Assembly: GCA_019454045.1 (NCBI GenBank)
Contig: SKCR01006518.1
Span: 124,001-188,000, forward strand
Direction of reading: 5' to 3'
Length of the DNA: 64,000 nt
DNA from: Zanthoxylum bungeanum
Taxonomy: Eukaryota; Streptophyta; Magnoliopsida; Sapindales; Rutaceae
The notes under the pieces were generated by a model, which ran no database searches, was not told the origin of the DNA, and saw only the letters and a program-made list of their open reading frames with translations. Positions 1,947 to 29,101 of this stretch are shown here, in pieces. The first letter of the stretch is position 1; each line of letters starts with the position of its first letter. Both the position numbers and the translations under genes were made by a program.

Positions 1947-3316
1947 GTGAAATTCCTGAGCGATGAAAAGGAAGAAGAATGTTTCAGAATTGATTTTTTT
2001 GATAGTATCGTTCAGAATATTGAGCCAAATCCCACAGATACACTTGAAGCTTGCATCACCAACATGACTGACAGCGAGCTAGCTGCTGAAATCCTGGAAT
2101 GTATCAACTACCTTGACAAACCATTCCAATTCAAATCAACACCACCAGTTGAAAGTCTGGAACTTCTGAAGAAAGATCGAATCAAGTTTTCAATTGAAGA
2201 ACCACCACAGCCGGAGCTGAAGTTACTACCGAGCCATCTCAGATATATATTTCTTGGAAACTCTTCTGAATTACCTGTTATTATTTCTTCTTCACTAACA
2301 TTGGAGCAAGAAGAAAAGTTGCTGAGAGTATTACGAGAGCACAAGAAAGCCATTGGCTGGACTATAGCAGCATTCGAGGCATTAGTCCATTATTTTGCAT
2401 GCATAATATTATAATGAACGATGAGTACAAACCCATAGTGGAGCATCAACGGAGACTCAATCCAATCATGAAGGAGATCTTGAAGAAATAAATCATCAAA
2501 TGGTTGGATGCTGACATCATTTACCCCATCTCAGACAGCACTTGGGTGAGTCATATGCAATGTGTGCCAAAGAAAGAAGGAATCATTGTAGTCACAAATG
2601 AAAAGAACGAGCTAATTCCAACAAGAACAGTGACTGGATGGAGAGTATGCATGGACTACCGAAAGCTGAACAAAGCCACGAGAAAGGACCATTTTCCGCT
2701 GCCATTCATTGATCAAATGTTGGACAGACTGGCGGGACATGAGTTCTATTGCTTTCTGGACGGATATTCAGGGTACAATCAGATTGCTATCGCCCCAAAA
2801 GATCAGGAGAAAACCACTTTTACATGTTCGTATGGTACTTTTGCATTTCGTAGGATGCCATTTGGATTATATAATGCCCCTGCCGCATTTCAACGTTGCA
2901 TGATGGCCATCTTCTCAGACATGTTGGAGCAGAGTATGGAAGTTTTTATGGATGACTTCTCTGTGTTTGGAGATTCTTTTGACCACTGCTTACAAAATTT
3001 GGAACAAGTGTTACAAAGATGTGAATATACCAACCTGGTACTCAACTGGGAGAAATGCCACTTCATGATGCAGGAAGACATTGTTCTTGGACACCGGATC
3101 TCACAAAAGGGAATCGAGGTAAACAAAGCAAAGATTAAAAAAAACTACCTCCGCCGACATCCGTCAAAGGGATTCGGAGCTTTCTCGGACATGCTGGCTT
3201 TTACAGGAGATTTATCAAAGACTTTTTCAAGATTGCTAAACCTATATGCAATCTTCTGGAGAAAGATGTATCTATCAACTTCACCAAATAATTCCATGAA
3301 GCTTTTGAGATCTTAA
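1947..3316 (+). pseudogene. Athila pol: protease-RT linker and reverse transcriptase, copy 1
   Basis: The region 1947-2397 encodes the linker that precedes RT in Athila polyproteins, including LPSHLRYIFLGNS and KLLRVLREHKKAIGWT. RT proper is read from 2504 and shows WRVCMDYRKLNKAT, the DGYSGYNQI block, RRMPFGLYNAPAAFQ and the catalytic FMDDFSVFG (the YxDD box as FMDD). Stops and frameshifts occur around 2400-2500 and after about 3140, where the frame is lost in the RT thumb. It once made the polymerase that copies element RNA into cDNA in virus-like particles. It is now a pseudogene. Confidence 0.9.
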
Positions 3317-3738
3317 AACAGAAGCTGGTCTCTGCCCCCATCATAGTAGCACTAGACTGGACCCTTCCATTTGAGGTGATGTGCGATGCTAGTGATTTTG
3401 TTGTAGGTGCAGTTTTGGGACAACACAAAGAAAAGATTTTCCACACCATTTACTACTCCAGCAAAACTTTGAATGAAGCTCAACTTAACTACACAACCAC
3501 TGAAAAGGAGTTGCTTGCAGTTGTGTTCGCTTTTGACAAATTCTACTTCTATCTGTTGGGTCCCAAAGTGGTGGTCTACACAGATCATTCAGCAATCAAA
3601 TATCTGATCGCGAAGAAAGATGTCAAACCCAGATTGATCCGTTGGATACTTCTTCTGTAAGAATTTGACGTGGAAATTCGAGACAGGAAATGGACAGAAA
3701 ACCAAGTGGCAGATCATCTATCGAGGCTCGAGAATGGA
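3316..3738 (+). pseudogene. Athila RNase H domain, copy 1
   Basis: The sequence encodes [35 protein letters not shown] and [11 protein letters not shown], the conserved acidic RNase H blocks of Ty3/gypsy, followed by an ADHLSRLE end. It is interrupted by a TAA stop at 3658-3660. RNase H removes the RNA strand during reverse transcription. Only one RNase H is visible, as expected for Athila and unlike the Tat element at 47580. Confidence 0.88.
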
Positions 3739-3864: not shown

Positions 3865-5106
3865 TTGGAATGGACAACTCAGCAACGAAAGAAGTTCTTC
3901 AATGAATTCAAGCATTATGTTTGGGATGAGTCGTACATGTTCAAACGTTGTGCTGATCAATTATTGAGATGGTGTGTTCCACATGAGGAGGTCAACAATG
4001 TTCTTCAACATTGTCATTCATCACCATATGGTGGACACTTCAGCGGAAACAAAACTGTAGCCAAAGTCCTACAATCAGGTTTGTTTTAGCCCACTCTTTT
4101 TAAAGATGCTTATCTTTTTGCTTTTCAATGTGACAGGTGCCAGAGAACGGGAAATATTTCCAGGAGAAATGAATGACCGTTGCAAAATATTCTGTAAGTG
4201 GAAATTTTTGATGTATGGGGAATTGATTTTATAGGACCCTTTATTCCATCATTCAGAAACATGTACATACTGGTTGCAGTAGACTACGTCTCCAAATGGG
4301 TTGAAGCAATTTCACTGCCATCCAATGATTCAAAAGTGGTGATTAAATTCCTTAAGAAGAAGATTTTCACTCGGTTCGGAACACCTCGGGCAATTATCAG
4401 TGATGGTGATACACATTTCTGCAAAAGATATTTTGATGCACTCCTATCCAAATATGGAGTTACTCACAAGTTTGCCACTGCTTACCATCCACAGTCAAAT
4501 GGACAGGTTGAAGTTTCAAACAGAGAAATCAAAAGAATCTTGGAGAGAACTGTTGGATCAACAAGAAGGGACTGGTCGAAAAAACTGGATGATGTATTAT
4601 GGGCCTACCGAACAGCTTACAAGACACCCATTGGTATGTCCTCATATCGATTGGTGTTTGGGAAAACATGTCATCTGCCAGTTGAGCTTGAACACAAGGC
4701 GTATTGGGCACTGAAGAAGTTGAATATTGATTCACAAGCTGCAGGAGAGAAACGATTTCACCAACTCAACGAATTGGAGGAGTTTCGTCTACAAGCTTAT
4801 GAGAATGCCAGATTGTACAAAGAAAAGACCAAGAAATGGCATGACCGAAAAATAGTGCACAGAATGTTGGAACCAAGGCAGCAGGTGTTGTTGTACAACT
4901 CAAGGTTGAAACTTTTCCCTGGAAAGTTGAAATCAAGGTGGTCAGGTCCTTTTGTGATCACTCAGGTTTTACCATATGGAGCTGTTAAGTTACTGGATCC
5001 CAACACCAACGAAACATTCAAGGTTAACAGTCAGCGTGTCAAGCACTACTGGGGAGAATCATTTGAGCGACAAAAAGAAAGTGTCACACTTTCAGATCCA
5101 GCATAA
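3865..5106 (+). pseudogene. Athila integrase, copy 1
   Basis: An N-terminal HHCC zinc-binding region (HCHSSPYGGH near 4010-4040, then CDRCQ near 4130-4145) is broken by stops around 4087-4200. From 4198 the core is open for 302 codons. It has the first Asp in GIDFIGPF, the second in ISDGDTHF and the Glu in [10 protein letters not shown], so the DDE triad is kept. A GPF-type C-terminal domain (SRWSGPFVI) follows, and the frame ends at TAA. The frame opens at a GTG with no ATG, so it is a continuation of pol and not a separate gene. The domain inserts the cDNA into chromosomes. Confidence 0.9.
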
Positions 5107-5204: not shown

Positions 5205-5228
5205 TTTTTGTGTGTTTAATTTTTGCAG
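5205..5228 (+). promoter_or_regulatory. Putative splice acceptor before accessory ORF A, copy 1
   Basis: A T-rich tract ends in TTTTTGCAG and is followed by GTAAAA. The ORF A start codon lies 17 bp downstream. Copy 2 has the same arrangement (CAG ending at 21117). Confidence 0.45.
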
Positions 5229-5244
5229 GTAAAATCATTTCACG

Positions 5245-5793
5245 ATGGAATAAGCTCTCGCAAATCTTCACAAGCAATTTCCTTCTCTCCCTCAAAAATA
5301 TCTGATGAAAGTCTAAAAAGCTCACTTGGAACGGATAAGACTACTGATGATCAAAGGTATTCCAACTGACATTCGTTGGATTATTGAAGCACGGGTCCGA
5401 TTGGCAGGTGAGTCTTCTGAATCTTTTATTTCACATCTGACTGGTTTTGGAAGAAGCACTTATGCAAAGAAACGTAGAGCTAAGCAAATGGGTGTTTGTT
5501 ACAAATGTGCACGCTGGAATTGCAATACTCGTTGTCGTTCTTTAGGAATAGTGTCTGATAATCGCGAAGATAAAATTAAATTCATTAGGGATGGCTTCAG
5601 TAAAGAGTCTTTAGATGATATATCTTCGACTCTTGAGACGCATCCCAGTAGATATGTTCATATAGTCATTCGTAAATTACATACACAATTCCAAAAAGAA
5701 AGACAACTGTTAAGTCTCTGGAATCTGACTCAAAAAGACCATGTTTGCCAATTTATAAGAAAATTTGATGGGAAGCTTGTCCTTGACGCATAG
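5245..5793 (+). pseudogene. Accessory ORF A, copy 1: carlavirus CRP-like protein, two early stops
   Basis: The homologue of the intact ORF at 21134-21682. The conserved ATG at 5245 is followed by a TAA at codon 3, and another TAA lies near codon 24. The rest is open to the stop at 5791-5793. The C-x2-C-x4-C-x3-C cysteines, the AKKRRAK basic run and the SDNREDKI-x-FIRDG segment are all conserved. The first extra cysteine of copy 2 (C83) is a glycine here. Re-initiation at an internal ATG could give 155 residues, but an inactivated gene is the simpler reading. Confidence 0.8.
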
Positions 5794-5971
5794 ACGTCAA
5801 CCAAGCTGTAAATTATTGTAAATAATATATCTCTTTGTCTTTTCCTAATAATTGTAATTTGTTTTGTTGTTTTCTTTTATTTTCTCCGATATGATCCAGA
5901 TCTTTTTGACCTATCACGATTTATTTTACTGTTTAACTAATAATTTTCATTTGGCATGTACTAGTGCTATT

Positions 5972-5992
5972 ATTTTTACTCACCCTTTTCAG
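5972..5992 (+). promoter_or_regulatory. Putative splice acceptor before LOG-like ORF B, copy 1
   Basis: TTTTTACTCACCCTTTTCAG is followed by GTGTTATA, 53 bp before the ORF B ATG. The tract is almost identical in copy 2 (CAG ending at 21817). Confidence 0.45.
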
Positions 5993-6044
5993 GTGTTATA
6001 AATTTAACTCATCATTGCACATTTGAAGGCATCCAGAGTAAAAC

Positions 6045-6698
6045 ATGGAAGCCACTTCAAGAAAACGAGTTGAAAACATATGTGTGTTTTGCGATACTAG
6101 TGTTGGTGTTAAACCACAATACATAAAAGCAGCACAAGAATTGGGTCGAGTCTTAGCTGCAAGGAATATGCACTTAGTATATGGCGGAGGCAATCTTGGA
6201 CTAATGGGGATCGTTTCAAAGGCTGTACAGGATGGAGGCAGTCAAGTCTTGGGAATCATCCCAAAACCCTTGGCGGAGGCAAATCTTATTGGACCATCAA
6301 ATGTAGAAGAACTAATTGTGCCAGGTATGTCTGAACGACTGGTAGAAATGATTAATCGTGCTGATGCTTTTATTGTTTTGCCATGTGGCTTGGGTACATT
6401 GGAGGAAATTTTTACAGTGTTATCTTATGCAAACTTGAACATACACCAGAAGCCGCTTGGACTATACAACGTTGAAGGATTTTATGATTTTATTTGTGTA
6501 TTTCTTGATGATGCTCGGAGAAATGGGTTCGTGACAAAACCTATGAAAGAACTCATCTTTACTGCCAGAACTGCTCCAGATCTAATTGACCAAATCTTAG
6601 CCTATGAACCATAAATTGACCCTATCATTTCAAAGATAAATTGGTCCGAGAACGATCGTGGTAAGAGGCGTCGGATTAATCTGGATCTTAACTTTTAA
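6045..6698 (+). pseudogene. LOG-like cytokinin riboside 5'-monophosphate phosphoribohydrolase in Athila copy 1
   Basis: The ORF is open for 189 codons from ATG 6045 to TAA 6612. LOG enzymes hydrolyse cytokinin nucleotides to active free-base cytokinin plus ribose 5-phosphate in the cytosol and nucleus. Visible family features are ICVFC at residues 12-16, the phosphate-binding YGGGNLGLMG at 46-55, Arg98 in the MSERLVEM segment, and PCGLGTLEE at 113-121, which is the PGGxGTxxE signature with its first glycine changed to cysteine. The TAA corresponds to CAA in copy 2. The same frame stays open after it to 6698 and encodes a conserved tail with GKRRR and LDLNF. The length with the tail (217 codons) suits the family. 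It lies within a retrotransposon, after ORF A and before the 3' UTR. The glycine loss and the nonsense codon suggest inactivity. Confidence 0.9.
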
Positions 6699-6778: not shown

Positions 6779-7559
6779 TCATTTAGGTTTGGGGGTGGGG
6801 AATAGTTGATTAGTATCTTGTTTTTATTTTGTTTTTATTTTTAGTCCAAATGTTTTCGAAAAATACAAAAAAAAAATTGAAATATTTTCAAAAATTACAA
6901 AAATATTTTGCGTTTTTATTTTTTTTTTGACTAAAAATGTGAAATTGGTGAGAGATAATGTGTAAGGAGTTTCCACTCCTGATACGTATTTCAACCCATT
7001 TTCGAAACAAGTTAATTTTTGTTTATTTCCTTTTGAATTATTTAATTTGTGAATTCTCCATACAATTAACTAAAATGGATCTTCATATGCTCAGTTGACA
7101 TGTATTATCAACATGCATGGTAATATACATACATGAGATGTAATTGAAAAGTTTGTAATATTCAGTGCTCTAGTTTAATTGGAGGAAGCATCTATGAAAA
7201 GCATTGGAGTAAAAAAAAATATCAAAAATCAAAGAAAAAAATCAAAAAAATTATTCCATTGCTACAAAAAGGTGTGAATTCTGATAAAACTTTAGGACAA
7301 AAATATTATTATCTTATCAACTGCACTTGTGACTGTTGTGGGCAAAAATGAGTTGATTAACATTTTGTTGGCTGTGTATATGGAGAATGGTAAATATAAT
7401 CGGAGAATTTACTTATTCAGTAATTTAGAAAGAAAGAAAACAACTAGTAACTTGGAGTATAAGTTTCACCTGATTAGTCACTAACTTCTTTATTCTCTTT
7501 TCTCTTGTCTTTTTGCTTTTGTGTGCATTAGTTTCACTACCTTTTTTACTTTTGTAAAA

Positions 7560-7690
7560 TGTTTGTGGGTATCATTGTTGTAAACCCTCACGAGACTACA
7601 ACTCGTCCACTAGGGACACCTAGGGGTTTAAAGGCTTGTTGCATACGCTAAATGCAACTGTGATCCCTACGAAAGTGGCTTAGTTAAATT
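7560..7690 (+). other. Conserved 3'-UTR block with GTTGCAT/ATGCAAC stem
   Basis: About 130 bp containing ACGAGACTACAACTCGTCCA, ACTAGGGACACCTAGGGG and GTTGCAT-7nt-ATGCAAC is retained in all four Athila 3' regions of the window (also about 23630-23760, reverse 27560-27690 and reverse 56540-56665). Confidence 0.6.
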
Positions 7691-7749
7691 TTATTTTAAA
7701 GATGTTTATATTATTTTATTCTGTGTTTTGCTCGAGGACTAGCAAAATA

Positions 7750-7764
7750 TTAGGTTTGGGGGTG
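7750..7764 (+). promoter_or_regulatory. Polypurine tract before 3' LTR, Athila copy 1
   Basis: TTAGGTTTGGGGGTG lies directly before the LTR start TGATGAG. It would prime plus-strand DNA synthesis. Confidence 0.7.
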
Positions 7765-8024
7765 TGATGAGTGGTAATTATATCACTATTTCCCACTCAT
7801 TTAACTTAATATTTTGTATAGTTTCTTGAGTTTTGTGAATATTTTGATGTATTTTGTGTTATTTTATAGATAAATAAAGTTTCAAGACTCTCTGGAGGTG
7901 ATTTGGGGCCAAAACAGTGAAAAACAGACAAAAGGGCAATTTGGTAATTTTACGCGTCACGATGCGTAAGCCTTCGACGTCGCACGCCTAACATGCGCCA
8001 TGAGCCGTTAACGTGCGCTAGGGG

Positions 8025-8430
8025 ACACGTGTCCGAATCTGAAAAGTTTGACTTGCTAACGTGCGTCTGCCACGTGTCAACATCACAGCCGATTTGCTAA
8101 CGTGCGCCGTGCCACGTGTCATCAACCTATGGTGACGACAATCACCATCGCCATGTGTCACCACGTGTCACTCCACATGTTAGCCACGTTATCATCCACA
8201 TCAGCAGTAGACCGAGTCAACATGCCACGTCACCACCACATCATCATCAGCCAATCACAACGTGCCACGTGTCGCAATCCTACAGTGCCGACAATCACTT
8301 TCGCCACGTGTTTCCACGTCATCACCACTTCATCGCCACGTCAGCATAATTATTGAGTCAATTATCCACATCGCCACGTCATCGGATAAGAATCTGAAGC
8401 AGCCAACCAGAGTGCGACACGTGTCACGTC
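8025..8430 (+). promoter_or_regulatory. G-box/ABRE-like array in type-B U3
   Basis: Seven CACGTG palindromes (mostly in (G/A)CCACGTGTC) and four CCACGTCA motifs lie within about 400 bp upstream of the TATA box. G-boxes and ABREs of this form are bound by plant bZIP and bHLH factors in ABA, light and stress responses. Whether they act in this LTR is inference. Confidence 0.6.
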
Positions 8431-8473
8431 GCGACGCGAAGTGCGCGTCGCGACGCGCACACCTTACCGAGAC

Positions 8474-8480
8474 CTATAAA
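8474..8480 (+). promoter_or_regulatory. TATA box of type-B LTR
   Basis: CTATAAA lies just downstream of the G-box array. The equivalent on the minus strand of copy 4 is near 55837-55845. Confidence 0.55.
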
Positions 8481-9835
8481 TTCAGCTCGAGGTTTCAGTT
8501 TCAGATGTACCTTCCTCTCTGAATTCTCTGATGTAAATATGGAGTTTTATATCTAGTTTTCTTTAAATTTCAGTTTTGTAATTAATTTTAATTACGTTCT
8601 GTAATAATAATTTACTTTCTTTACTTTTTCAGTATTTACTATTCAGCTATGAGGAGATAACTTCTCACTACTATGGTGAAAGGTAAAATTTTTATTACTG
8701 CTATTTAGATTAATCTCCATAATTATAATATATTCACTATTTAAAATTTGACTTAATGAGGATACCGATGTATTGGTCGGTTGGTAATCAATTATAAACT
8801 GGTTTTAATCTGACTAAGCATAGATACCGCCTGGTTGGTCGGTTGGTAATATACCGCCTTTATGGCATGTCAGACTTAATTTCACTTAATCAGATTACCG
8901 CCTATATGGTTGGTTGGTAATACCATCACAAGTTGATATATTATATTAAGGGAGATATCTAAAATAGTAGTAGTAAAAGTAGATCTTTTAACCCCTAAAA
9001 TTTTATATTTGTAATTTTACTTTTCAGTATTTACTTTACCGCATTTACTTTTCAGCATTTTATTTTATGTCTTTTATTTTTAAAGTTTTACTAGCCCTAG
9101 TTATGTGTCGTAACTAAGTTATTTATCTAGGGTTGTGATGAATTCTAATATCACCGGTTTATAATGGGTTATTTTATAGTTTGGGTAATTTAAAGGTTTA
9201 CTTATTAAGTCTTAAGCTTAATGCGTCTTGTTAATTGGCCACTAATAAGATTGATCTGGTAAATCTAAAATAAACTTGACAAATGAATTTTAGGTTTCAG
9301 CCTTAGACTTAATAGCCCACGATCTTCCTTGAGGATAGATAACCCTTTAATATATTTCCTTACAGGATAGACATATACATGTCGGGCAGGGTAGCCATAA
9401 TTGAAACTTAAACTCAATGAATCCAGGTAATTTGGTTGACATAGATATATGGTTCAATTGGGTTAAACTGGGTATTTGCGTCTGACCATCGACAGAGGCT
9501 TTCGTATAATTTCATGTTCCAGGTTAGTAAACCGATATATTACTCAAAAATGAAATAACAACTTCATCTTTTAAAAGATATTGGAAAGATTCACAACCCT
9601 GGATAGTTTCTTAATATTGAATTTTCTTAAACCTACTTTCGTGCAATTTTATTTACTTGTTTTAAATTTAGAATCTTCACCATTTCAAATCAATCAATCA
9701 ACTTGTTAGATACTAGTAATCATTTGACCTCATAAAATTAATAGATTAGGTATTAAGTCCTCGTGGGATCAATGCTTTTTATACTACTTGAACGATATGT
9801 ACGCTTGCGTTATACGCGTGTGATTTCGCCGGTCA

Positions 9836-17900: not shown

Positions 17901-18193
17901 AAATATGAAATAACCGCTTCATCTTTTAAAAGATATTAGAAAGATTCACAACCCTAGATAGTTTCCTAATATTAAATTTTCTTAAACCTACTTTCGTGCA
18001 ATTTTATTTACTTGTTTTTAAATTCAAAATCATCACCATTTCAAATCAATCAATCAACCTGTTAGATACTAGTAATCATTTGACCTCATAAAATTAATAG
18101 ATTAGGTATTAAGTCCTCGTGGGATCAATACTTTTTATACTACTTGAACGATACGTGCGTTTGCGTTATACGCGTGTGTGTAATCACCGGTCA
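14941..18193 (+). repeat. 5' LTR of Athila copy 2, with internal inverted segment
   Basis: A type-A LTR of 3253 bp. The forward LTR runs to about 16967. Then 16968-17716 is a reverse complement of about 15590-16350. Forward sequence resumes at about 17711, so 17717-18193 repeats and completes 16610-16967. The junctions share ACTAG and TTCCTTA. Confidence 0.82.
16968..17716 (-). repeat. Inverted LTR segment inside the copy 2 5' LTR
   Basis: Reverse complement of the upstream part of the same LTR, including the 57-bp tandem array (about 17290-17440) and the minisatellite (16990-17190). The same left junction occurs in the 3' LTR at 26076. Confidence 0.85.
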
Positions 18194-18199
18194 AGGTTT

Positions 18200-18217
18200 T
18201 GGCGCCGTTGCCGGGGA
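18200..18217 (+). promoter_or_regulatory. Primer-binding site, tRNA-Asp type
   Basis: TGGCGCCGTTGCCGGGGA is, from memory, a perfect 18-nt complement of the 3' end of plant tRNA-Asp including CCA, the primer typical of Athila. It lies 6 bp after the LTR. Confidence 0.85.
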
Positions 18218-18324: not shown

Positions 18325-19970
18325 ATGAGACGAACCAGAAGCTTTGAACTCCGACCGCTTGACCCAGAGATTGAAAGAACCATCAGACAGTTGAGAAGGG
18401 AAAGGCGAGAAGGCCAAGAAGCAATCATTAACATGGAACCTGAACCTTTGAACGTTGCACCACCAATTCCCATCCGAGATAGAACCATTCCGGTGGTTGA
18501 CAGACTCATTTCTTGTATTGTACTTCCTCCTTACCAGCAAATGCGGGTGACATATAAACATGCATCCAGATGATTCAGCAGTCAGTACAGTTCGGGGGAA
18601 ATGCAACTGAAGATCCTAATGCCCACATCAACAACTTCCTGGAAGTTTACGGTACTTTCAATTACAACCGAGCAGCTGAAGAAGCAATGAGACTGCGGGT
18701 TTTTCCATATTCCCTGAAAGACAGAGCTAAAGCTTGGCTACATTCGTTACCAGCAGGTTCTATCATAATTTGGAACACTCTAGCCACCAAATTTCTTGCA
18801 AAGTACTTTCCACCAGCCAGAACTGCAAAGTTGAGGAATGACATCACATCCTTCGTGCAACAAGATTCAGAATCCCTTTGCGAAGCTTGGGAAAGATTCA
18901 AAGATTTACTCTGGAAATGTCCTCATCATGAGATCACAAAGTGGCTACAAGTCCAAACTTTCTACAATGGACTTTCTGGACTAATGAGAACCATAATTGA
19001 TGCTGCTGCTGGAGGAGCTTTAATGGCAAAAGGAGAAGGTCAAGCCTGGGACTTAATCGAGGAAATGGCTAACAATAATTCATTGTGGCCAACAGACAGG
19101 AGCATGATTCAAAGAATTGCAGGAATTTATGAACTTGGAGCAAACACAGCAGTAAATACCAGGCTGGATCAGATATGCAAATGTCTAGAAACACTTAGCA
19201 CGCAAGTTGTGAACATCGCTGGAACCACAAGTTCACCATATGGAGGAGCACCAGAACCAATTCCACATAAAGAAACGGTGAACTACGTCAACAATTTCAA
19301 CAGACAGAGGAATAATCTATATTCCAACACCTATAACCCAGGGTGGAAGAATCATCCTAATTTTTCATGGAGCAACAATTCAGGGAAAATGAACAACCCA
19401 CCACCCGGATTCCAGCAACAGAACAAAGGCCAGGAGCGTGAAAAAGAACCATGAATAATAGAAGTGTTGGCCCAATTGAAGAAGCAATAAGCAAAATACG
19501 ATGCTTTAGCAGCTATGGTTCAAAATCAAGTGGCATTGAATCAAAGTCATTCAGCTTCTATCAAAGCACTGGAGAATCAAATGGGACAACTGGTCAATAC
19601 TCAGAGTTATAGACCATCGGGTACTCTTCCTAGCAACACAGAGCCAAATCCAAGGAACATGGGAAAGGAACAATGTCATGCCATCATGTTAAAAAGCGGT
19701 ACTGAAATCAACAAAGATGTTGGAGCCAAAACAACTGATGAAGAAGTTCCAAAAGAAACAAAGCAACAGATGGAGGAAAAAAAAAGCAAAGGAAAAAGAA
19801 CAGATCACTCCACCTCCACCTTTTCCACAACGACTTCAGAAAAAAAAATGGACAAGCAGTTTGTTCGATTCCTGGAGGTGTTCAAGAAGCTTCACATCAA
19901 CATTCCATTTGCAAAAGCGTTGGAACAAATGCCCAGCTATGCCAAATTCATGAAAGACATTCTTTTATGA
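18325..19970 (+). pseudogene. Athila gag, copy 2
   Basis: Gag forms the virus-like particle. It is read from ATG 18325 (83 codons) and continues in the next frame from 18570 (294 codons), where about one base is missing. It then continues after a TGA at 19452 into 19515-19970. Visible features are FLEVYGTFNYNRAAEEAMRL and the following segment ending in KAWLHSLPAGSI, the core retrotransposon gag domain with FLAKYFPPARTAKLRNDI, a Gln/Asn-rich stretch at about 19260-19450, and a C-terminal coiled-coil-like part with FLEVFKKLHINIPFAKALEQ. A CCHC knuckle is not evident. It is broken by at least one frameshift and two stops. Confidence 0.88.
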
Positions 19971-19979
19971 AAGCGGAGA

Positions 19980-20369
19980 TTGGGAGATTACGAGATAGTA
20001 GCATTATCAGAAGAATGCAGCGCTATCATTCAGAGGAAACTTCCTCCAAAATTGAAAGATCCTGGCAGTTTCATTGTTCCTTGCACCATAGGAGAACATG
20101 ACTTTGGTAAGGCTTTATGTGATTTAGGTGCTAGTGTTAACTTGATGCCTTTTTCTATTTTCAGGAAACTACAGATTGGAGAAACAATGCCCACATCAGT
20201 CTCTCTACAATTTACTGATAGAATGCTCGTATTTCCGAGAGGTGTAGTTGAAGATGTGCTGGTCAAGGTTGACAAATTCATTTTCCCAGCAGATTTTATT
20301 GTCCTTGATATGGAGGAAGACGCAGACGTGCCAATCATCCTTGGGAGACCGTTCTTGGCTACAGGTTGA
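19980..20369 (+). pseudogene. Athila protease, copy 2
   Basis: The aspartic protease domain retains the catalytic segment ALCDLGASVNLMP (D-L-G-A) and the ILGRPFLATG end. It is separated from gag by a stop at 19968 and a frame change. The next codon after the core is TGA, so pol could not be read through. The protease normally cleaves the gag-pol polyprotein. Confidence 0.85.
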
Positions 20370-20996
20370 ACCATTATTGATGTACAAAAATGAAAATTAA
20401 CCATGAGGGTACAGGACCAAGAAGTAACATTCAATATTTTCAATGCCATGAATTTCCAGAAGATGAAAAGAAGGAGGAATGTTTCAGACTTGATGTGATA
20501 CACAGTACCATTCAGAACTCCAATGCAATGCAAAGTTCTATTGACAAACTTAAAATATGTCAATTGCATGTGGAGCCTGAAGATAAAGCGTCTTTTGCAC
20601 TGAAAAAGCCAATTCTTGCACTACAAGCAACAGAAGAGAAAAAGTTCCACCAGCTCAACGAATTGGAGGAATTTCACAATCAGCCTTTTGAGGATGCCAA
20701 ATTATACAAAGAAAATGCCAAGAAGAGACATGATGAGAAGTTAGCGTGCATACAACTGGAACCAGGGTAGAAGGTATTGTTAAACAAATCAAGGGTGAAA
20801 TTCTTCCCATGGAAGCCAAAATCACGGTGGTCAGGTCCATTTGTGATCACCAAAGTTTTACCAGACAGAGCCGTTGAGATACATGATCCTGACTCCAACA
20901 AAACTTTCAAGGTTAAAAAAAAGCGTGTTAAGCACTACTGAGGAGAATCATTTGAGCGACAAAAAGAAAGTGTCACACTTTCAGATCCAGCCTAAC
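20370..20996 (+). pseudogene. Deleted pol remnant: protease-RT linker fused to integrase C-terminus, copy 2
   Basis: From 20390 the frame encodes the start of the protease-RT linker (DEKKEECFRLDV). Near 20596 it passes directly into the integrase tail ([24 protein letters not shown]), which aligns with 4735-4850 of copy 1. The GPF-type end continues in broken frames to about 20996. RT, RNase H and the DDE core are missing, so copy 2 could move only by using proteins from another element. Confidence 0.85.
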
Positions 20997-21093: not shown

Positions 21094-21117
21094 ATTTTGT
21101 GTGTTTAGTTTTTGCAG
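21094..21117 (+). promoter_or_regulatory. Putative splice acceptor before ORF A, copy 2
   Basis: GTGTGTTTAGTTTTTGCAG then GTTAAG, 16 bp before ATG 21134. It matches the copy 1 site. Confidence 0.45.
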
Positions 21118-21133: not shown

Positions 21134-21682
21134 ATGGAAGAAGTTCTCGCAAATCTTCACAAGCAATTTCCTTCTCTCCCTCAAAAATCTCTGATGAAAG
21201 TCTACAAAACTCGCTTGGAACAAATGAGACTATTGATGATCAAAGGTATTCCTACTGACATTCGTTGGATTATTGAAGCACGGGTCCGATTGGCAGGTGA
21301 GTCTTCTGACTCTTTTATTTCACATCTGCCTGGTTTAGGAAAGAGCACATATGCTAAAAAGAGAAGAGCCAAAAGAATGTGTGTTTGTTATAAATGTGCT
21401 CGCATGTTTTGTAATACTCGTTGTCGTTATTTAGGAATGGTGTCTGATAACCGCGAAGATAAGATTAATTTCATTAGGGATGGCTTGAGTAAGGAGTCTT
21501 TGGATGACATATCTAAAACTCTTGAGACGCATCCCAGTGGATGTGTGTATCACGAAATTCGTGTGTTATACGCACAATTCCAAAAAGAAAGACAACAATT
21601 AAGTCTCGGGAATCTGACTCAAAAAGACCATGTTTGCCAATTTATAAGAAAATTGGATGGGAAGCTTGTCCCTGACGCATAG
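21134..21682 (+). CDS. Accessory ORF A: carlavirus-type cysteine-rich nucleic-acid-binding protein-like, intact
   Basis: 182 residues from ATG 21134. This start is conserved in copy 1 and follows the acceptor-like site. Residues 1-60 are probably helical. A Gly-rich hinge leads into STYAKKRRAKRM (71-82), then cysteines C83, C85, C88, C93 and C97, of which the C-x2-C-x4-C-x3-C set is conserved in copy 1, then SDNREDKINFIRDG (104-117) and a 60-residue C-terminal extension. The order Gly/Ser plus Tyr-Ala, Arg/Lys run, Cys pair, Cys pair, then a Phe-Ile-x2-Gly block resembles carlavirus and allexivirus cysteine-rich proteins (Pfam Carla_C4 / Viral_NABP). These bind nucleic acid, enter the nucleus and suppress RNA silencing in some viruses. 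The cysteine spacing is tighter than I expect for those viruses. The assignment is by eye; the ORF itself is certain. Confidence 0.75.
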   Translation: MEEVLANLHKQFPSLPQKSLMKVYKTRLEQMRLLMIKGIPTDIRWIIEARVRLAGESSDSFISHLPGLGKSTYAKKRRAKRMCVCYKCARMFCNTRCRYLGMVSDNREDKINFIRDGLSKESLDDISKTLETHPSGCVYHEIRVLYAQFQKERQQLSLGNLTQKDHVCQFIRKLDGKLVPDA

Positions 21683-21795: not shown

Positions 21796-21817
21796 TTATT
21801 TTACTCACCCTTTTCAG
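21796..21817 (+). promoter_or_regulatory. Putative splice acceptor before LOG-like ORF B, copy 2
   Basis: ATTTTACTCACCCTTTTCAG then GTGTTATA, nearly identical to copy 1. Confidence 0.45.
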
Positions 21818-21869: not shown

Positions 21870-22522
21870 ATAGAAGCCACTTCAAGAAGACGAGTTGAAA
21901 ACATCTGTGTGTTTTGCGGTACTAGTGTTGGTGTTAAGCTACAATACGTAAAGCATCACAGGATTTGGGTCGAGTCTTAGCTGCAAGGAATATGCACTTA
22001 GTATATGGCGGAGGCAATCTTGGACTTATGGGGATCATTTCAAAGGCTATACATGAAGGAGGCAGTCACGTTTTGGGAATCATCCCAAAACCCTTGGCAG
22101 AGGCAAATCTTATTGGACCATCAAACGAAGAAGAGATAATTGTGTCAGGTATGTCTGAACGACTGGTAGAAATGATTAATCGTTTTGATGCTTTTATTGC
22201 TTTGCCAGGTGGCTTGGGTACATTGGAGGAAATTTTTACAGTGTTATCTTGGGCGAACCTGAACATACACCAGAAACCGCTTGGACTGTACAATGTTGAA
22301 GGATTTTATGATTTTTTTTGTGTGTTTCATGATTATGCCCGGAGAAATGGGTTCGTGTCAAAACCTATGAAAGAACTCCTCTTTACTGCCAGAACTGCTC
22401 CGGATCTAATTGACCAAATCTTAGCCTATGAACCACAAATTAACCCTATCCTTTCAAAGATAAAATGGTCCGAGGACGATCGTGGTAAGAGGCGTCGGAT
22501 TAATCTGGATCTTAACCTTTAA
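21870..22522 (+). pseudogene. LOG-like phosphoribohydrolase in Athila copy 2 (start lost, 1-nt deletion)
   Basis: The position of the copy 1 start codon reads ATA (21870), and one A is missing from an A run near codon 28 (about 21952). After that the frame is open to TAA 22520. The length of 653 nt is exactly one short of 217 codons plus stop. Here the LOG signature is intact as PGGLGTLEE, with YGGGNLGLMG and the Arg in MSERLVEM also kept. The C-terminus carries KWSEDDRGKRRRINLDLNL, a basic cluster followed by an LxLxL motif. An ATG at 21965 could start a 185-residue product with the catalytic motifs but without the N-terminal strand; its activity is unlikely but untested. Confidence 0.88.
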
Positions 22523-23823
22523 CTTTTCATTTAGATGTAGAATTTCAGCTAACCATGTATTATCTTCTAAACTCTTCTTCTATTGTTTAAGACATTGGGG
22601 AAAATGTCTCATTTAGGTTTCGAGGAGGGAATTAGTTGATCAGTATCTTGTTTTTAGTCCAAAATTTTTCGAAAAATACAAAAAAAAAATTGAAAATTTT
22701 CAAAAATTACAAAAATATTTTGCGTTTTTGTGTTTTTATTTTGACTAAAATGGTGAAATTGGTAAGAGATAGCTGAGTAAGGAGTTTCCACTCCTGAGAC
22801 GTATTTCAAACCTAATTCGGAACAAGTTAATTTTTGTTTATTTCCTTTTGAATTATTTAATTTGTGAATTCTCCATAATACTGACTAAAATGGATCTTCA
22901 TATGCTCAGTTAGCATTATCAACATGCATAGTAACATACAGACATAAGCTGAAATTGAAAAATTTGTAATATTCGGTGCTCTAGTTTAATTGGAGGAAAC
23001 TTCTCAAAAAGTGATGGAGTAAAAAAAAAAAAAAACATCTGAGATCCGAGTTATTAAGTCTGTAAGGGTGTTTTAACACCTAGTGCCCTAAAGCCAACTG
23101 GTTTGGGAGTCACTGGCCCAAAGCTCACTACATGGATCAAAGATGCTGCAAAAATATATATATCTGAAGTCTGAGTAATTAAGTCTGTAGGGGTGTCTTA
23201 ACACCTGGTGCCCTAAAGCCAACTGGTTTGGGAGCCACCGACCCAACACTCGCTACATAGATGGAAGATATTGTATATATAAAAAAAAATCAAAAATCAA
23301 AGAAAAAAATTAGAAAAATTATTCCATTGCTGCAAAAAGGTGTGAATTCTGATAAAACTTTAGGACAAAAATATTACACTTTTATCAACTGCACTTGTGA
23401 CTGTTGTGGGCAAAAATGAGTGATTAATATTTTGTCGGCTGTGCATATGGAGAATGGTAAATATAATCGGAGAATTTACTTATTCAGTAATTTATAAAGA
23501 AAGAAAACAACTAGTAACTTGGAGTAGAAGTTTCACCTGATTAATCACTAACTTCTTTATTCTATTTTCTCGTCTTTTTGCTTTTGTGTGCATTAGTTTT
23601 ATTATCTTTTTACTTTTGTAAAACGTTTGTGGGTATCGTTGCTGTAAGCCCGTACGAGACTATAACTCTTCCACTAGGGACACCTAGGGGGTTTAAAGGC
23701 TTGTTGCAAATGCTAAATGCAACTGTGATCCCTACGAAAGTGGCTTAGTTTAATTTTAATTGTTTCTTGTATTTTATTTTGTTGTTTTTCTCGAGGACGA
23801 GCAAAATTTTAGGTTTGGGGGTG
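22523..23823 (+). other. 3' UTR of Athila copy 2
   Basis: Non-coding. It holds the GGGA-loop hairpin (22591-22608), a decayed first polypurine tract, a duplicated module of about 125 bp (23036-23290), the conserved block at about 23630-23760 and the final tract GGTTTGGGGGTG before the LTR. Confidence 0.7.
23036..23290 (+). repeat. Tandemly duplicated 125-bp module in the 3' UTR
   Basis: Two copies each contain GTCTGTARGGGTG, a (G)GTGTTTTAACACC hairpin, GCCCTAAAGCCAACTGGTTTGGGAG and a CTACATRGATSRAAGAT end. Two copies occur in reverse at about 28030-28290 and one at about 57010-57120. Copy 1 lacks the module. Confidence 0.7.
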
Positions 23824-26075
23824 TGATGAGCGGAAAATATATCAATATTTACCGCCCCTTTTACTTAATATTTTGTTTAGTTTCTCGGGTTTGATGAACA
23901 TTTTGATGTGTTTTAGTTTATTTTGCAGATAAAATAATATTGGGACACAATTAAATCATTTAGGATGAAATGTGGGTCAAATAAGGGAAAAAATTGGACT
24001 TGACATATTAATTTTGGAGGGCCGCTATTCCGCAGGAATAGAGTAAGGCCTTTACCTCCTCAGTAGCTACTGAGCTATCAAGAGACATTAACTCTATGGC
24101 AATTTGCTATTAAGCAAATGCCATATTAAAAATAGCTCTTGATAGATACCATTGAAAAGGAAGGCGGTACGCCTTAAAGGGCACAAGAGTGCCCGCTTCG
24201 CTCTTCCTTCTTGTACATTTAGGATAGCTCCTTGGTGTGCTGATTGGAAACTTGAAAGGGAGTTTTAACGAAGTGCAGTTTTGGAAACTCCAATTTTGCG
24301 CATCTGTCGTATTATGGGCATAACTTTTTACTCCGATATCAGATTGAGCTGATTCAGGTTCCAGATTAAATAAGACTCAATGCTCTACAACTTGGAAAGA
24401 CAAAATAATTTCGAATTCTGAAGATTTCATGCCCGAAATTGATGAACCATCCAGAAGTGTGTTGTGTGTAATTATTAAAGTCATTTTCAATCATTTTCAA
24501 AGCAAAAAATAAATTAATAAATACATAATAAAAATTATCAAATCACCACCAACATGATAAGCAATTAGTGGAGCAATTAATAATGGATTTGGTGGAGCAA
24601 TTAGTGGAGCAATTAATAATGGATTTGGTGGATGATTTGATGGAGGCAAAATTTTGCCTATAAATACCAAGCCATTTCATTTGTAAATTCATACTTTCTT
24701 CTAAGGAATTCCTTAAGAATACTAAGAAGATTGTATCTTATTTGTTTATTTACAGCTTTCAGTAATTAATTTCAGCTTTCGCACTTTCTTTTCTTTACTT
24801 TTCAGTTTTTACTTTCCGCAATTTACTTTTACGCACAATACTTTTCTTTCTATAATTTACAGTTTTTACTTTTCAGTAATGAGGAGGTAACTCTCCTTTG
24901 CTGGGGTAAAAGGTAAAACTTTTATTACTAATATTTATATTAATCTCCCTTAATTATAATATATAAACTAGTTAAAACCTGACTTAACGAGGATACCGCC
25001 ATATTGGTCGGTTGGTAATTATTTAAATTGGTTTTAACCTGACTAAACTGGATACCGTCTGATTGGTCGGTTGGTAATTAATTATTAATTTGACTTAATC
25101 TGGATACCGCCTATATGGCTTGTTGGTAATTATCATGCAAAGTTCTTATATTATATTAAGGGAGATATCTAAAATAGAAGTAATAAAATTGGATCTTTTT
25201 ACCTCAGCATTTTCTTTTATTGTACTTTTACTTTATTTACTTTTCAGTAATTTACTTTCAGCATTTACTTTTCAACAATTTACTTTCAGCAATTTACTTT
25301 CAGCATTTTCTTTTCAGTAATTTACTTTCAGCATTTACTTTTCAGCATGTAATTTTCAGTATTTAATTTCAGCATTTACTTTCCGTCACTTACTTTTCTG
25401 CAATTTACTTTTCAGCATTTTACTTTATGTCTTTTATTTTATTTAAATTTTTACTAGCCCTAGTTATGTGTCGTAACTAAGTTAGTTATCTGGGGTTGTG
25501 ATGAATTCTAATATCACCGGTTTTAAGAGGTTATTTTATAGTTTGGGTAATTTAAAGATTTACTTATTAAGTCTTAAGCTTAATGCGTCTTGTTAATTGG
25601 CCACTAATAAGATTGATCTGGTAAATCTAAAATAAACTTGACAAAGGAAATTTAGGTTTCAGCCTTAGACTTAATAGCCCACGATCTTCCTTGAGGATAT
25701 ATAACCCTTTAATAGATTTCCTTACAGGATAGACATATACCTGTCGGGCGGGGTAGCCATAATTGGAACTTAAACTTAATGAATCCAGGTAATTTGGTTG
25801 ACATAGACATATGGTTCAATTGGGTTATACTGGGTATTTGCGTCTGACCATCGACAGAGGCTTTTGCATAATTTCGTGTTTCAGGTTAGTAAACCGATTT
25901 ATTACACAAACATGAAATAACCGCTTCATCTTTTAAAAGATATTAGAAAGATTCACAACCTTAGATAGTTTCCTAATATTAAATTTCTTAAACCTACTTT
26001 CGTGCAATTTTATTTACTTGTTTTTAAATTCAAAATCATCAACATTTCAAATCAATCAATCAACTGTTAGACATA
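23824..26075 (+). repeat. 3' LTR of Athila copy 2, truncated, with inverted junction
   Basis: Starts TGATGAGCGG. It matches the 5' LTR up to the ACTAG inversion point, where reverse-complement sequence takes over. It contains a 223-bp foreign insert (24020-24242) that is absent from the 5' LTR. Confidence 0.85.
24020..24242. other. Hairpin-dense 223-bp insert in the 3' LTR
   Basis: Compared with 15136-15150 this is a clean insertion between TTTTGGAG and ATTGGAAAC. It contains at least six perfect or near-perfect hairpins in a row: CTATTCC-GCA-GGAATAG (24025-24041), a 16-nt palindrome (24059-24074), CTATCAAGAG paired with CTCTTGATAG (24075-24084 and 24136-24145) enclosing an 11-bp bulged stem (24097-24123), AAGGCG-GTA-CGCCTT (24161-24175) and GGGCAC-AAGA-GTGCCC (24179-24194). 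Its composition suggests organellar, perhaps mitochondrial, origin. I cannot name it. Confidence 0.6.
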
Positions 26076-28436
26076 ACTAGGGCTAGTAAAAACTTAAATA
26101 AAATAAAAGACATAAAGTAAAATATTGAAAAGTAAATTGCTGAAAAGTAAATGACGGAAAGTAAATGCTGAAATTAAATACTGAAAATTAAATGCTGAAA
26201 ATGAAATGCTGAAAGTAAATTACTGAAAAGTAAATGCTGTGAAAGTAAATAGCTGAAAGTAAATTGCTGAAAAGTAAATGCTGAAAAGTAAATAAAGTAA
26301 AAGTACAATAAAAGAAAATGCTGAGGTAAAATGATCCACTTTTATTACTTCTATTTTAGATATCTCCATTAATATAATATATTAACTTTACATGATAATT
26401 ACCAACCAGCCATATAGACGGTATCCAGATTAAGTCAAATTAATAATTAATTACCAACCGACCAATCAAGCGGTATCCAGTTTAGTCAGGTTAAAACCAA
26501 TTTAAATAATTACCAACCGACCAATATGGCGGTATCTTCGTTAAGTCAGGTTTTAACTAGTTTATATATTATAATTAAGGGAGATTAATCTAAATATTAG
26601 TAATAAAAGTTTTACCTTTTACCCCAGCAAAGGGGAGTTACCTCCTCATTACTGAAAAGTAAAAACTGAAAATTAAAGAAAGAAAAATATTGTGCGTAAA
26701 AGTAAATTGCGGAAAGTAAAAACTGAAAAGAAAAGAAAAGAAAGTGCGAAAACGGAAAATAATTACTGAAAGTTGTAAATAAATAAACAAGATACAATCT
26801 TCTTAGTATTCTTAAGGAATTCCTTAGAAGAAAGTATGAATTTACAAATGAAATGGCTTGGTATTTATAGGCAAAATTTTGCCTCCATCAAATCATCCAC
26901 CAAATCCATTATTAATTGCTCCACTAATTGCTCCACCAAATCTATTATTAATTGCTCCACTAATTGCTTATCATGTTTGGTGGTGATTTGATAATTTTTA
27001 TGATTTATTTATTAATTTATTTTTTTGCTTTGAAAATGATTGAAAATGACTTTAATAATTACACACAACACACTTTTGGATGGTTCATCAATTTCGGGCA
27101 TGAAATATTCAGAATTAAAAATTATTTTGTCTTTCAAAATTGTAGATATTTGAGTCTTCTTTAATCTGAAACCTGAATCAGCTCAATCCGATATCGGAGT
27201 AAAAAGTTATGCCCAAAATACGACAGATGCGCAAAACTAGAATTTCCAAAACTGCACTTCGTTAAAACGCCCTTTCAAGTTTCCAATCTCCAAAATTAAT
27301 ATGTCAAGTCCAATTTTTGCCCTTATTTGACCCAAATTTCATCCTAAATAATTTCATTATGTCCCAATATTATTTTATCTGTAAAATAAACTAAAACACA
27401 TCAAAACGTTCATCAAACCCGAGAAACTAAATAAAATATTAAGTAAAAGGGGCGGTAAATATTGATATATTTTCCGCTCATCACACCCCCAAACCTAACA
27501 TTTTGCTAGTCTTCGAGCAAAACAATAAAATAAAATACAAGAAACAATTATAATTAAACTAAGCCACTTTCGTAGGGATCACAGTTGCATTTAGCATATG
27601 CAACAAGCCTTTAAACCCCTAGGTGTCCCTAGTGGACGAGTTATTGTCTCGTGAGGGCTTACAACAACGATACCCACAAACATTTTACAAAAGTAAAAAG
27701 ATAATAAAACTAATGCACACAAAAGCAAAAAGACAAGAGAAAAGAGAATAAAAAAGTTAGTGACTAATCAGGTGAAACTTCTACTCCAAGTTACTAGTTG
27801 TTTTCTTTCTTTCTAAATTACTGAATAAGTAAATTCTCCGATTATATTTACCATTCTCCATATGCACAGCCGACAAAATACTAATCAACTCATTTTTTCC
27901 CACAACAGTCACAAGTGCAGTTGATAAGAGAGTAATATTTTTGTCCTAAAGTTTTATCAAAATTCACACCTTTTTGCAGCAATGGAATATTTTTCTGATT
28001 TTTCTGAATTTTTTCTTTGATTTTTGATTTTTTTTTATTTATATACAATATATTCCATCTATGTAGCGAGTGTTGGGTCGGTGGCTCCCAAATCAGTTGG
28101 CTTTCGGGCACCAGGTGTTAAGACACCCCTACAGACTTAATTACTCAGACTTCATATATATATATTTTTGCAGCATCTTTGATCCATGTAGCGAGCTTTG
28201 GGCAAGTGACTCCCAAACCAGTTGGCTTTAGGGCACTAGGTGTTAAATCACCCTTACAGACTTAATAACTCGAATCTCATACGTTTTTTTTTTACTCCAT
28301 CACTTTTTGAGATGCTGCCTCCAATTAAACTAGAGCACTGAATATTACAAACTTTTCAATTATAACTCATGTCCGTATTTTACCATACATGTTGATAATA
28401 CCTGCCAACTGAGCATATGAAGATCCATTTTAGTCA
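26076..28436 (-). mobile_element. Inverted Athila 3' arm (reverse LTR plus reverse 3' UTR)
   Basis: 26076-27483 is a reverse-complement type-A LTR missing its R/U5 end. It is followed at 27484 by the reverse of the polypurine tract (CACCCCCAAACCT) and of the 3' UTR (conserved block 27560-27690, module pair 28030-28290), up to ATTTTAGT near 28434. With 22890-25455 it forms an inverted repeat of about 2.4-kb arms around a spacer of about 620 bp. It carries no coding sequence and lacks the 223-bp insert. Confidence 0.8.
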
Positions 28437-28941
28437 TTTCATCCATTTTAATATGTTTCTGATGAAACGCGAATAGAATATTCTGACTGGTTCAAAGATA
28501 TTCGATTTGAAGTTTTGAAAAATTATATCATTAAAATTCATCGTGAGTCTTTGAATTGTTCAAAGATGTTTGATATGATCAAACATATAAATTTATGGCA
28601 ATTTGTTCTAAGGTTATTCAATGAATATGATTCTTACTCAATATTACTCTTCTACGATTCATCGTGAGCATATGATAATACCTGCCAACTGAGCATATGA
28701 AGATCCATTTTAGTCATTTCATCCATTTTAATATGTTTCTGATGAAACGCGAATAGAATATTCTGACTGGTTCAAATATATTCGATTTGAAGTTTTGAAA
28801 AATTATATCATTAAAATTCATCGTGAGTCTTTGAATTGTTCAAAGATGTTTGATATGATCAAACATATAAATTTATGGCAATTTGTTCTAAGGTTATTCA
28901 ATGAATATGATTCTTACTCAATATTACTCTTCTACGATTCC
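28394..28941. repeat. Tandem duplication, 280-bp period
   Basis: 28394-28673 and 28674-28941 are nearly identical. Each contains the last 40 bp of the inverted Athila arm plus 240 bp of LARD sequence, so the duplication happened after the arm was in place. Confidence 0.85.
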
Positions 28942-29101
28942 ATCGTGATGGCATTGGTCAGTGGGAGAAGTCAAATCTTATATGATTTGATTCGTTTGGT
29001 ATTGAGTGTTACCTAATTAGTTTCAATACTCTTCGGGATATGCTCCAGTAACTCTAATTCGTCCTTTTAATTAAGGTTCCATTAGTTTCTACAGTTATGT
29101 A
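28437..29101 (+). other. LARD internal region, middle part
   Basis: It contains a 73-codon open frame at 28795-29016, part of which is repeated by the 280-bp duplication. I do not recognise the encoded sequence, and it may be a decayed fragment. No other gene is seen. Confidence 0.4.

Follow-up and report, generated by a model that had tools for sequence, protein, structure and literature searches.

Paired cysteine-rich-protein-like and LOG-family genes show signs of purifying selection in a putatively Athila-type retrotransposon family of Zanthoxylum bungeanum

We analyzed a stretch of 64,000 nucleotides of the Zanthoxylum bungeanum genome (assembly GCA_019454045.1, contig SKCR01006518.1, positions 124,001 to 188,000 of the forward strand; hereafter the window), which holds, about 16 kb apart, what are best explained as two decayed members of a high-copy Ty3/gypsy retrotransposon family that we take to be Athila-type. 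Between integrase and the 3' untranslated region (UTR) both copies carry a two-gene accessory module, namely an open reading frame (ORF) resembling the cysteine-rich proteins (CRPs) of carlaviruses, here called ORF A, followed by an ORF of the LOG family, here called ORF B. Comparison of the window with itself found each ORF just twice, one ORF A and one ORF B per copy. Overall, we give somewhat better than an even chance to the explanation that the module is homologous to CRP and LOG proteins, has been under selection, is exchanged between elements of the family and would aid the element or the cell that harbors it.

ORF A of copy 2 is open over 182 amino acids (21134..21682, plus strand) and matches the families Viral_NABP (E 5.4e-8) and Carla_C4 (E 8e-5); its basic stretch is followed by a C-x2-C-x4-C-x3-C finger. 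The copy 1 frame (5245..5793, plus strand) is broken near its start, with an ATG at 5245, in-frame stops at 5251 and 5314 and an open stretch from 5317 to 5793, and it matches Carla_C4 at 1.8e-7 (31.5 bits, cut-off 20.9) and Viral_NABP at 1.2e-5 (25.9 bits, cut-off 23). The curated gathering cut-offs of both families were passed by ORF A of both window copies, and none of nine shuffled or reversed ORF A controls matched the CRP families. Among 41 aligned ORF A proteins, 37 matched Carla_C4 and 34 matched Viral_NABP at E 0.01; the commonest length was 182 amino acids (22/41), and the finger was found with the spacing given above in 32 and with other spacings in 4, while the four-cysteine pattern was not found in 5. 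Beyond the Pfam match, about 60 C-terminal residues are also conserved. A search of 5.8 billion proteins returned 214 matches at E 0.01 or better, the top one with 84% identity across 91% of the query; many of the best 120 were multi-member clusters, and the sources named among these 120 were Xanthoceras, Acer, Rhamnella and Orobanche. When viral contigs were scanned with alignments of the two ORFs, no relative was found. By its family matches ORF A, a small basic protein, is homologous to the CRPs that carlaviruses and their relatives encode at the 3' terminus and that bind nucleic acid, and it may work like one, but it is no virus gene, since it is encoded in retrotransposons of a plant genome. 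An env-like identity was rejected for both ORFs, as the family search gave no match to env-like or Athila ORF-1 families.

By its family scores, ORF B is a LOG-family phosphoribohydrolase. Copy 1 ORF B (6045..6698, plus strand) matches Lysine_decarbox at 4.8e-32, the NCBIfam model TIGR00730 with 155.4 bits (cut-off 96.35) and the structure PDB 2a33 at 8.6e-51, whereas copy 2 ORF B (about 21870..22522, plus strand) matches Lysine_decarbox at 2.8e-33 and TIGR00730 with 138.5 bits. Scores for PF03641 were 111.3 bits in copy 1 and 115.3 in copy 2 against a cut-off of 27, and the closest solved relative is At2g37210. In the family, ORF B is one uninterrupted frame of 217 amino acids. Copy 1 starts with an ATG at 6045 and meets a premature stop at 6612, with homology continuing to 6695, and one glycine of its PGGxGTxxE motif is altered; in copy 2 the motif is intact, but the start codon is lost and the N-terminal part is frameshifted. 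The motif occurs in 17 of 19 intact host ORF Bs and in 99 of 120 listed homologues, some of which are fragments. Both copies fell short of the equivalog model NF058542 (109.6 and 96.2 bits, cut-off 300); this does not exclude LOG activity, because that library names bacterial and archaeal proteins, and no known plant LOG was run as a comparison. On a quick tree with SH-aLRT support only, the window ORF Bs grouped with 102 database proteins, among them several from Xanthoceras and a 'LOGL10' from Populus, and separately from 40 LOG1/LOG3-type matches and LOG8 (support 97); the 102 were labelled by search rank rather than genomic context, and the sampling left out other host LOG subfamilies. An earlier note on this DNA had described, from the letters alone, a carlavirus-CRP-like ORF and a LOG-family ORF in the same order after integrase at both loci. 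Both identities and the shared order were borne out, and chance is excluded for both ORFs because curated Pfam and NCBIfam cut-offs were passed, 0 of 9 controls matched and each host search described below gave 150 scored matches, with identities of 87-100%.

The host genome was searched over 3.96 Gb in 51,709 contigs. For each query 150 matches were scored, out of 47,474 first-look candidates for ORF A of copy 2 (identity at least 89%), 43,647 for ORF A of copy 1 (at least 87%) and 66,420 for ORF B of copy 1 (at least 88%). Three contigs, but not a single place, are common to both ORF A lists, so the genome holds at least 300 ORF A matches. We read 80 of the 150 loci scored with ORF A of copy 2, window copy 2 included. 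Integrase sequence was found upstream on the same strand at all 80, and LOG sequence downstream on the same strand at 78, where at least 150 of 190 residues were covered in 74. The LOG sequence starts 188-596 bases past ORF A (median 260); it is missing from 2 loci and shorter than 50 residues in 2. Independent lists gave the same arrangement: the two ORFs share a strand, their matches starting about 0.85 kb from each other, at three places common to the ORF A (copy 2) and ORF B lists, and ORF A follows a 302-residue integrase match by about 215 bases at three places, besides window copy 1, common to the ORF A (copy 1) and integrase lists (contigs were compared and positions read by eye). With window copy 1 added, an open LOG piece is present at 78 of 81 loci, ORF B is intact at 19 and ORF A at 66, the latter count being biased as loci were picked by ORF A. 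The earlier note had called for a search of the host for copies with both ORFs intact. Such copies exist at 15 of the 81 loci, but neither window copy is among them, since both copy 1 ORFs carry stops and copy 2 ORF B has lost its start and is frameshifted.

The arrangement extends in part to another plant. One locus (L001), a 3.3-kb contig, carries an open integrase frame at 104-1594 and, after it, an ORF A frame at 1736-2347; LOG was not found in the remaining 1 kb. To judge from this single locus, ORF A would be the member of wider occurrence and LOG an optional addition. The contig is plant retrotransposon sequence filed under a Candidatus Nomurabacteria metagenome-assembled genome (DAIEQH010000041.1), apparently as a contaminant.

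Copy 1 retains the integrase core and C-terminus immediately 5' of ORF A (4198..5106, plus strand; Pfam rve 7.7e-16). By self-comparison copy 2 is without reverse transcriptase (RT), RNase H and integrase core, which were lost at a junction joining protease to the integrase C-terminus (20494..20552), and self-comparison together with the population alignment places an integrase C-terminal remnant at 20552..20992 (plus strand). This junction is spanned in one match by 71 of the 80 loci, window copy 2 (L002) among them; because copy 2 served as the query, the sampled copies resemble it and the count gives no share of non-autonomous copies for the family as a whole. The integrase core is present at 6 of the 80 loci; all 6 have open ORF B pieces, and 5 have ORF A at full length, with the sixth falling just short of it. 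RT was found at none of the 80 loci within flanks reaching only 1.5 kb, so its loss in the subfamily rests on the junction. The amplified subfamily that retains both ORFs is apparently non-autonomous. Its integrase remnant is open, in most copies, at the two positions where copy 2 has stops, and may be translated given this and the weak constraint reported below.

The 3' module has a history of its own. Sliding identity between the window copies changes from about 73% to about 92% at a breakpoint in 5020..5050, and dips to 80-88% inside ORF A (about 5383-5742); dS is 0.69 for integrase, 0.26 for ORF A and 0.12 for ORF B. A module about 92% identical on a pol about 73% identical points to movement of the module between pol lineages by recombination.

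Selection on the two ORFs was assessed in 72 of 79 copies whose integrase remnant is more than 88% identical to copy 2, and in a second sample of 70 junction-sharing copies. In the 72 copies, variants confined to one copy were neutral (w 1.01 in ORF A and 1.10 in ORF B), whereas those present in four or more copies had w 0.31 and 0.37, respectively, values as low as which were reached in none of 1000 context-matched randomisations. Control frames gave w 0.90-1.16 (3' UTR pseudo-frames) and 1.35 and 1.74 (shifted ORF B frames). The contrast between shared and singleton variants recurred in the junction-sharing copies, with p 1.1e-10 for ORF B and 1.9e-7 for ORF A. Frameshift-type indels per kb numbered 1.3 in the integrase remnant, 2.0 in the spacer between integrase and ORF A and 2.0 in ORF B, compared with 10.5 in the 3' UTR and 21.7 in the spacer between the ORFs; the value of 0 for ORF A is biased by the choice of loci. 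Between the two window copies, w was 0.29 in the integrase C-terminus and 0.37 in ORF A (0.23-0.64). The population result for ORF B is the cleaner one, because the choice of loci did not use ORF B. Judged from these variant patterns, both ORFs have been under purifying selection during amplification, which suggests that both extra genes were kept working while the element multiplied.

How the module would act can be outlined from the known properties of the two protein families. LOG enzymes release active cytokinin. ORF B could thereby push the cell into a dividing, transposition-permissive state. ORF A and ORF B may be made from spliced 3' messenger RNAs, as an acceptor-like sequence precedes each: TTTTTGCAG lies 16 bases before the ORF A start in copy 1 (5220..5228, plus strand; equivalent to 21109-21117 in copy 2) and, as read from the sequence, CACCCTTTTCAG lies before ORF B in copy 2 (21806..21817, plus strand). 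In the nucleus, ORF A might bind host nucleic acid or the RNA of the element and either blunt silencing or activate transcription. Excerpts of PMC12172455 and PMC3689765 describe carlavirus CRPs as nucleic-acid binding and several of them as silencing suppressors, and the chrysanthemum virus B (CVB) protein p12 as a transcription factor tied to hyperplasia, while disagreeing over the extent to which CVB p12 itself suppresses silencing. It is reasonable to suppose that a module of this kind would quiet silencing and favor division. Products that help the element's RNA or the host cell, with pol supplied in trans, would fit the retention of both genes after loss of RT and integrase core. The further proposal, that a selected and recombinationally mobile CRP and LOG module reprogrammes the host cell and is kept by non-autonomous copies because it benefits them, is one we put forward tentatively and consider rather doubtful as a whole.

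Several results weigh against our reading. LOG appears to be optional, being missing from 2 of the 80 host loci and from L001 within the available 1 kb. The finger of the potato virus H (PVH) CRP, C-x2-C-x9-C-x4-C in the accessible part of PMC3689765, is longer than that of ORF A. Solved structures offered no match to ORF A at E 1. Structure prediction added little: the AlphaFold model of ORF A is poor (pLDDT 62.9, pTM 0.33), and none of its 23 Foldseek matches among viral models, mostly virus CRPs, was better than E 0.047. The first 16 of these were plant-virus nucleic-acid-binding or silencing-suppressor proteins or nameless rows, presumably of Betaflexiviridae; because model confidence is low, they count as a mere hint, consistent with a CRP identity. 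As for selection, the integrase remnant is also weakly constrained (w 0.62, p 0.017 in the 72 copies; shared versus singleton p 0.0036 in the 70 junction-sharing copies), so the selection seen may partly reflect autonomous relatives. In the latter sample, some control frames were not silent: the +1 frame of ORF B reached a nominal p of 0.014 (in individual count classes, 0.0011 and 0.0032), and frame 0 of the 3' UTR gave 0.0036 in the highest class and 0.078 overall. The pairwise estimate for ORF B between the window copies, w 0.54, has an interval of 0.26-1.20. Finally, the acceptor-like sites are conserved no better than their surroundings, their AG being kept in 77 of 79 copies for ORF A and 74 of 79 for ORF B against a similar background.

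The weak constraint on the integrase remnant leads to an alternative that we regard as plausible, though short of an even chance, in which selection acts only in autonomous elements and recombination has passed the 3' module on to a non-autonomous subfamily that gains nothing from it. The clear breakpoint just 5' of ORF A fits this account, as do the 6 of 80 loci where ORF A lies downstream of an integrase core and the three further places with a 302-residue integrase match some 215 bases ahead of ORF A, but 71 of 80 ORF A loci share one common deletion junction and still keep the module. If both genes were instead captured and then amplified passively, without function in the element, the broken state of ORF B in most sampled copies and the singleton w of about 1, a sign of neutral evolution after insertion, would be expected; the w of 0.31 and 0.37 for shared variants, set against 0.90-1.74 in control frames, strongly disfavors such hitch-hiking for both ORFs, the PGGxGTxxE motif is retained by 17 of 19 intact ORF Bs, and we consider this scenario improbable.

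A different question is what ORF A does. It might be an intrinsic RNA-packaging or nucleocapsid-like protein of the retroelement, acting in particle assembly and not in silencing, from which virus CRPs were derived or with which they share a motif for general nucleic-acid binding. The wide distribution of ORF A among plants, its position right after integrase in another plant and its own conserved C-terminal part would all suit such a role; yet copy 2 has gag, so that a nucleocapsid substitute is not obviously needed, and the pairing with LOG would suggest effects directed at the cell. We hold this possibility to be rather unlikely. Duplication of a single locus, which the earlier note had named as the finding that would undo its proposal, could be entertained only for the short distance of about 16 kb between the copies. 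It is ruled out by the differing deletions, the diverged pol (dS 0.69) and the at least 300 host ORF A matches, leaving it next to no probability, and the LOG sequence at 78 of 80 host ORF A loci makes the pair a module of many elements.

We favor, then, a CRP and LOG module that is selected and exchanged within a putatively Athila-type family, and parts of it have counterparts elsewhere. Searches of open-access literature, judged mainly from titles and abstract openings, gave no report of a CRP-like ORF, or of the pair, in a retrotransposon. The earlier note, in saying that it knew of no such retrotransposon, is not supported as worded and needs narrowing, because a YgdH/LOG domain has been published for gypsy-type consensus sequences from two species of Citrus and, with a filter off, from poplar (PMC9289625, in its accessible part, citing Steinbauerova 2011). 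These elements share with ours a LOG-family ORF in a Ty3/gypsy context, and the tree places LOG sequences of Populus in one group with ORF B; unlike here, the accessible text mentions neither a CRP-like ORF nor the pair, and it describes no test of selection and no non-autonomous subfamily. The same text reports an enzyme-coding extra ORF in a gypsy element, an AlkB RNA demethylase, which differs in the enzyme, in being reported from two Phalaenopsis orchids and in having no CRP-like partner described there. With the CRPs of carlaviruses (CVB p12 and those of potato virus M and PVH) ORF A shares Carla_C4, Viral_NABP and a basic stretch ahead of a cysteine finger, but it has the conserved C-terminal extension and is encoded by retrotransposons. 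Extra ORFs of Athila and Tat elements, env-like ones included, as far as described in excerpts of PMC6317226, PMC11728184 and PMC7264820, likewise lie in sense orientation between pol and the 3' long terminal repeat (LTR), whereas ORF A and ORF B match no env-like or Athila ORF-1 family. According to its accessible part, the survey in PMC6317226 set a minimum of 250 codons for extra ORFs, so it would miss ORF A and ORF B at 182 and 217 amino acids. What is unusual in this putatively Athila-type element with extra ORFs is the identity of ORF A, its pairing with LOG and the evidence of selection.

The remaining parts of the two elements are as follows. Copy 1 runs, on the plus strand, from RT and RNase H (2492..3660; RT 2492-3316, RVT_1 104 bits; RNase H 3292-3660, RT_RNaseH 116.5 bits) through integrase, ORF A, ORF B and 3' UTR to a 3' LTR at 7273..9835, placed by self-comparison and sequence with both ends approximate. 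Family searches and self-comparison found no gag in copy 1, where the end of the 5' LTR abuts the protease region. The 5' LTR of copy 2 ends near 18193 and is followed by a primer-binding site read from the sequence (18200..18217, plus strand), which we take to match tRNA-Asp, and by the gag and protease region (18558..20494, plus strand; Retrotrans_gag 1.1e-23, Asp_protease_2 0.0058, below its cut-off). The order gag, protease, RT, RNase H, integrase is pieced together across both copies. An additional RNase H (aRH) marks the Tat lineage (PMC6317226, accessible part); in L001, where RNase H-like sequence and integrase lie in a single open frame, no room for one is apparent. In the window, the 3' end and LTR of copy 2, together with a downstream inverted copy of them (26071-28436; identity 93-94%), make up a large palindrome (22882-28436), and at 28393-28948 about 270 bases are duplicated in tandem with 99% identity. 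Fragments of another retroelement, which has an rve integrase domain and, as read from the frames, a copia-like order, were found at 41797-44678, and a minus-strand ORF at 57682-58536 matches Pfam Transposase_32 (9e-39), a family related to Athila ORF1 according to an excerpt of PMC11728184.

The origin and function of extra ORFs in plant retrotransposons are mostly unknown. In this family the homologue of ORF A is a virus protein whose activities have been studied, and that of ORF B is an enzyme that is simple to assay; since both ORFs bear a footprint of selection in an abundant family, the old question whether such ORFs do anything becomes directly testable. Through the homology of ORF A, plant RNA viruses and retrotransposons would also be linked by gene exchange.
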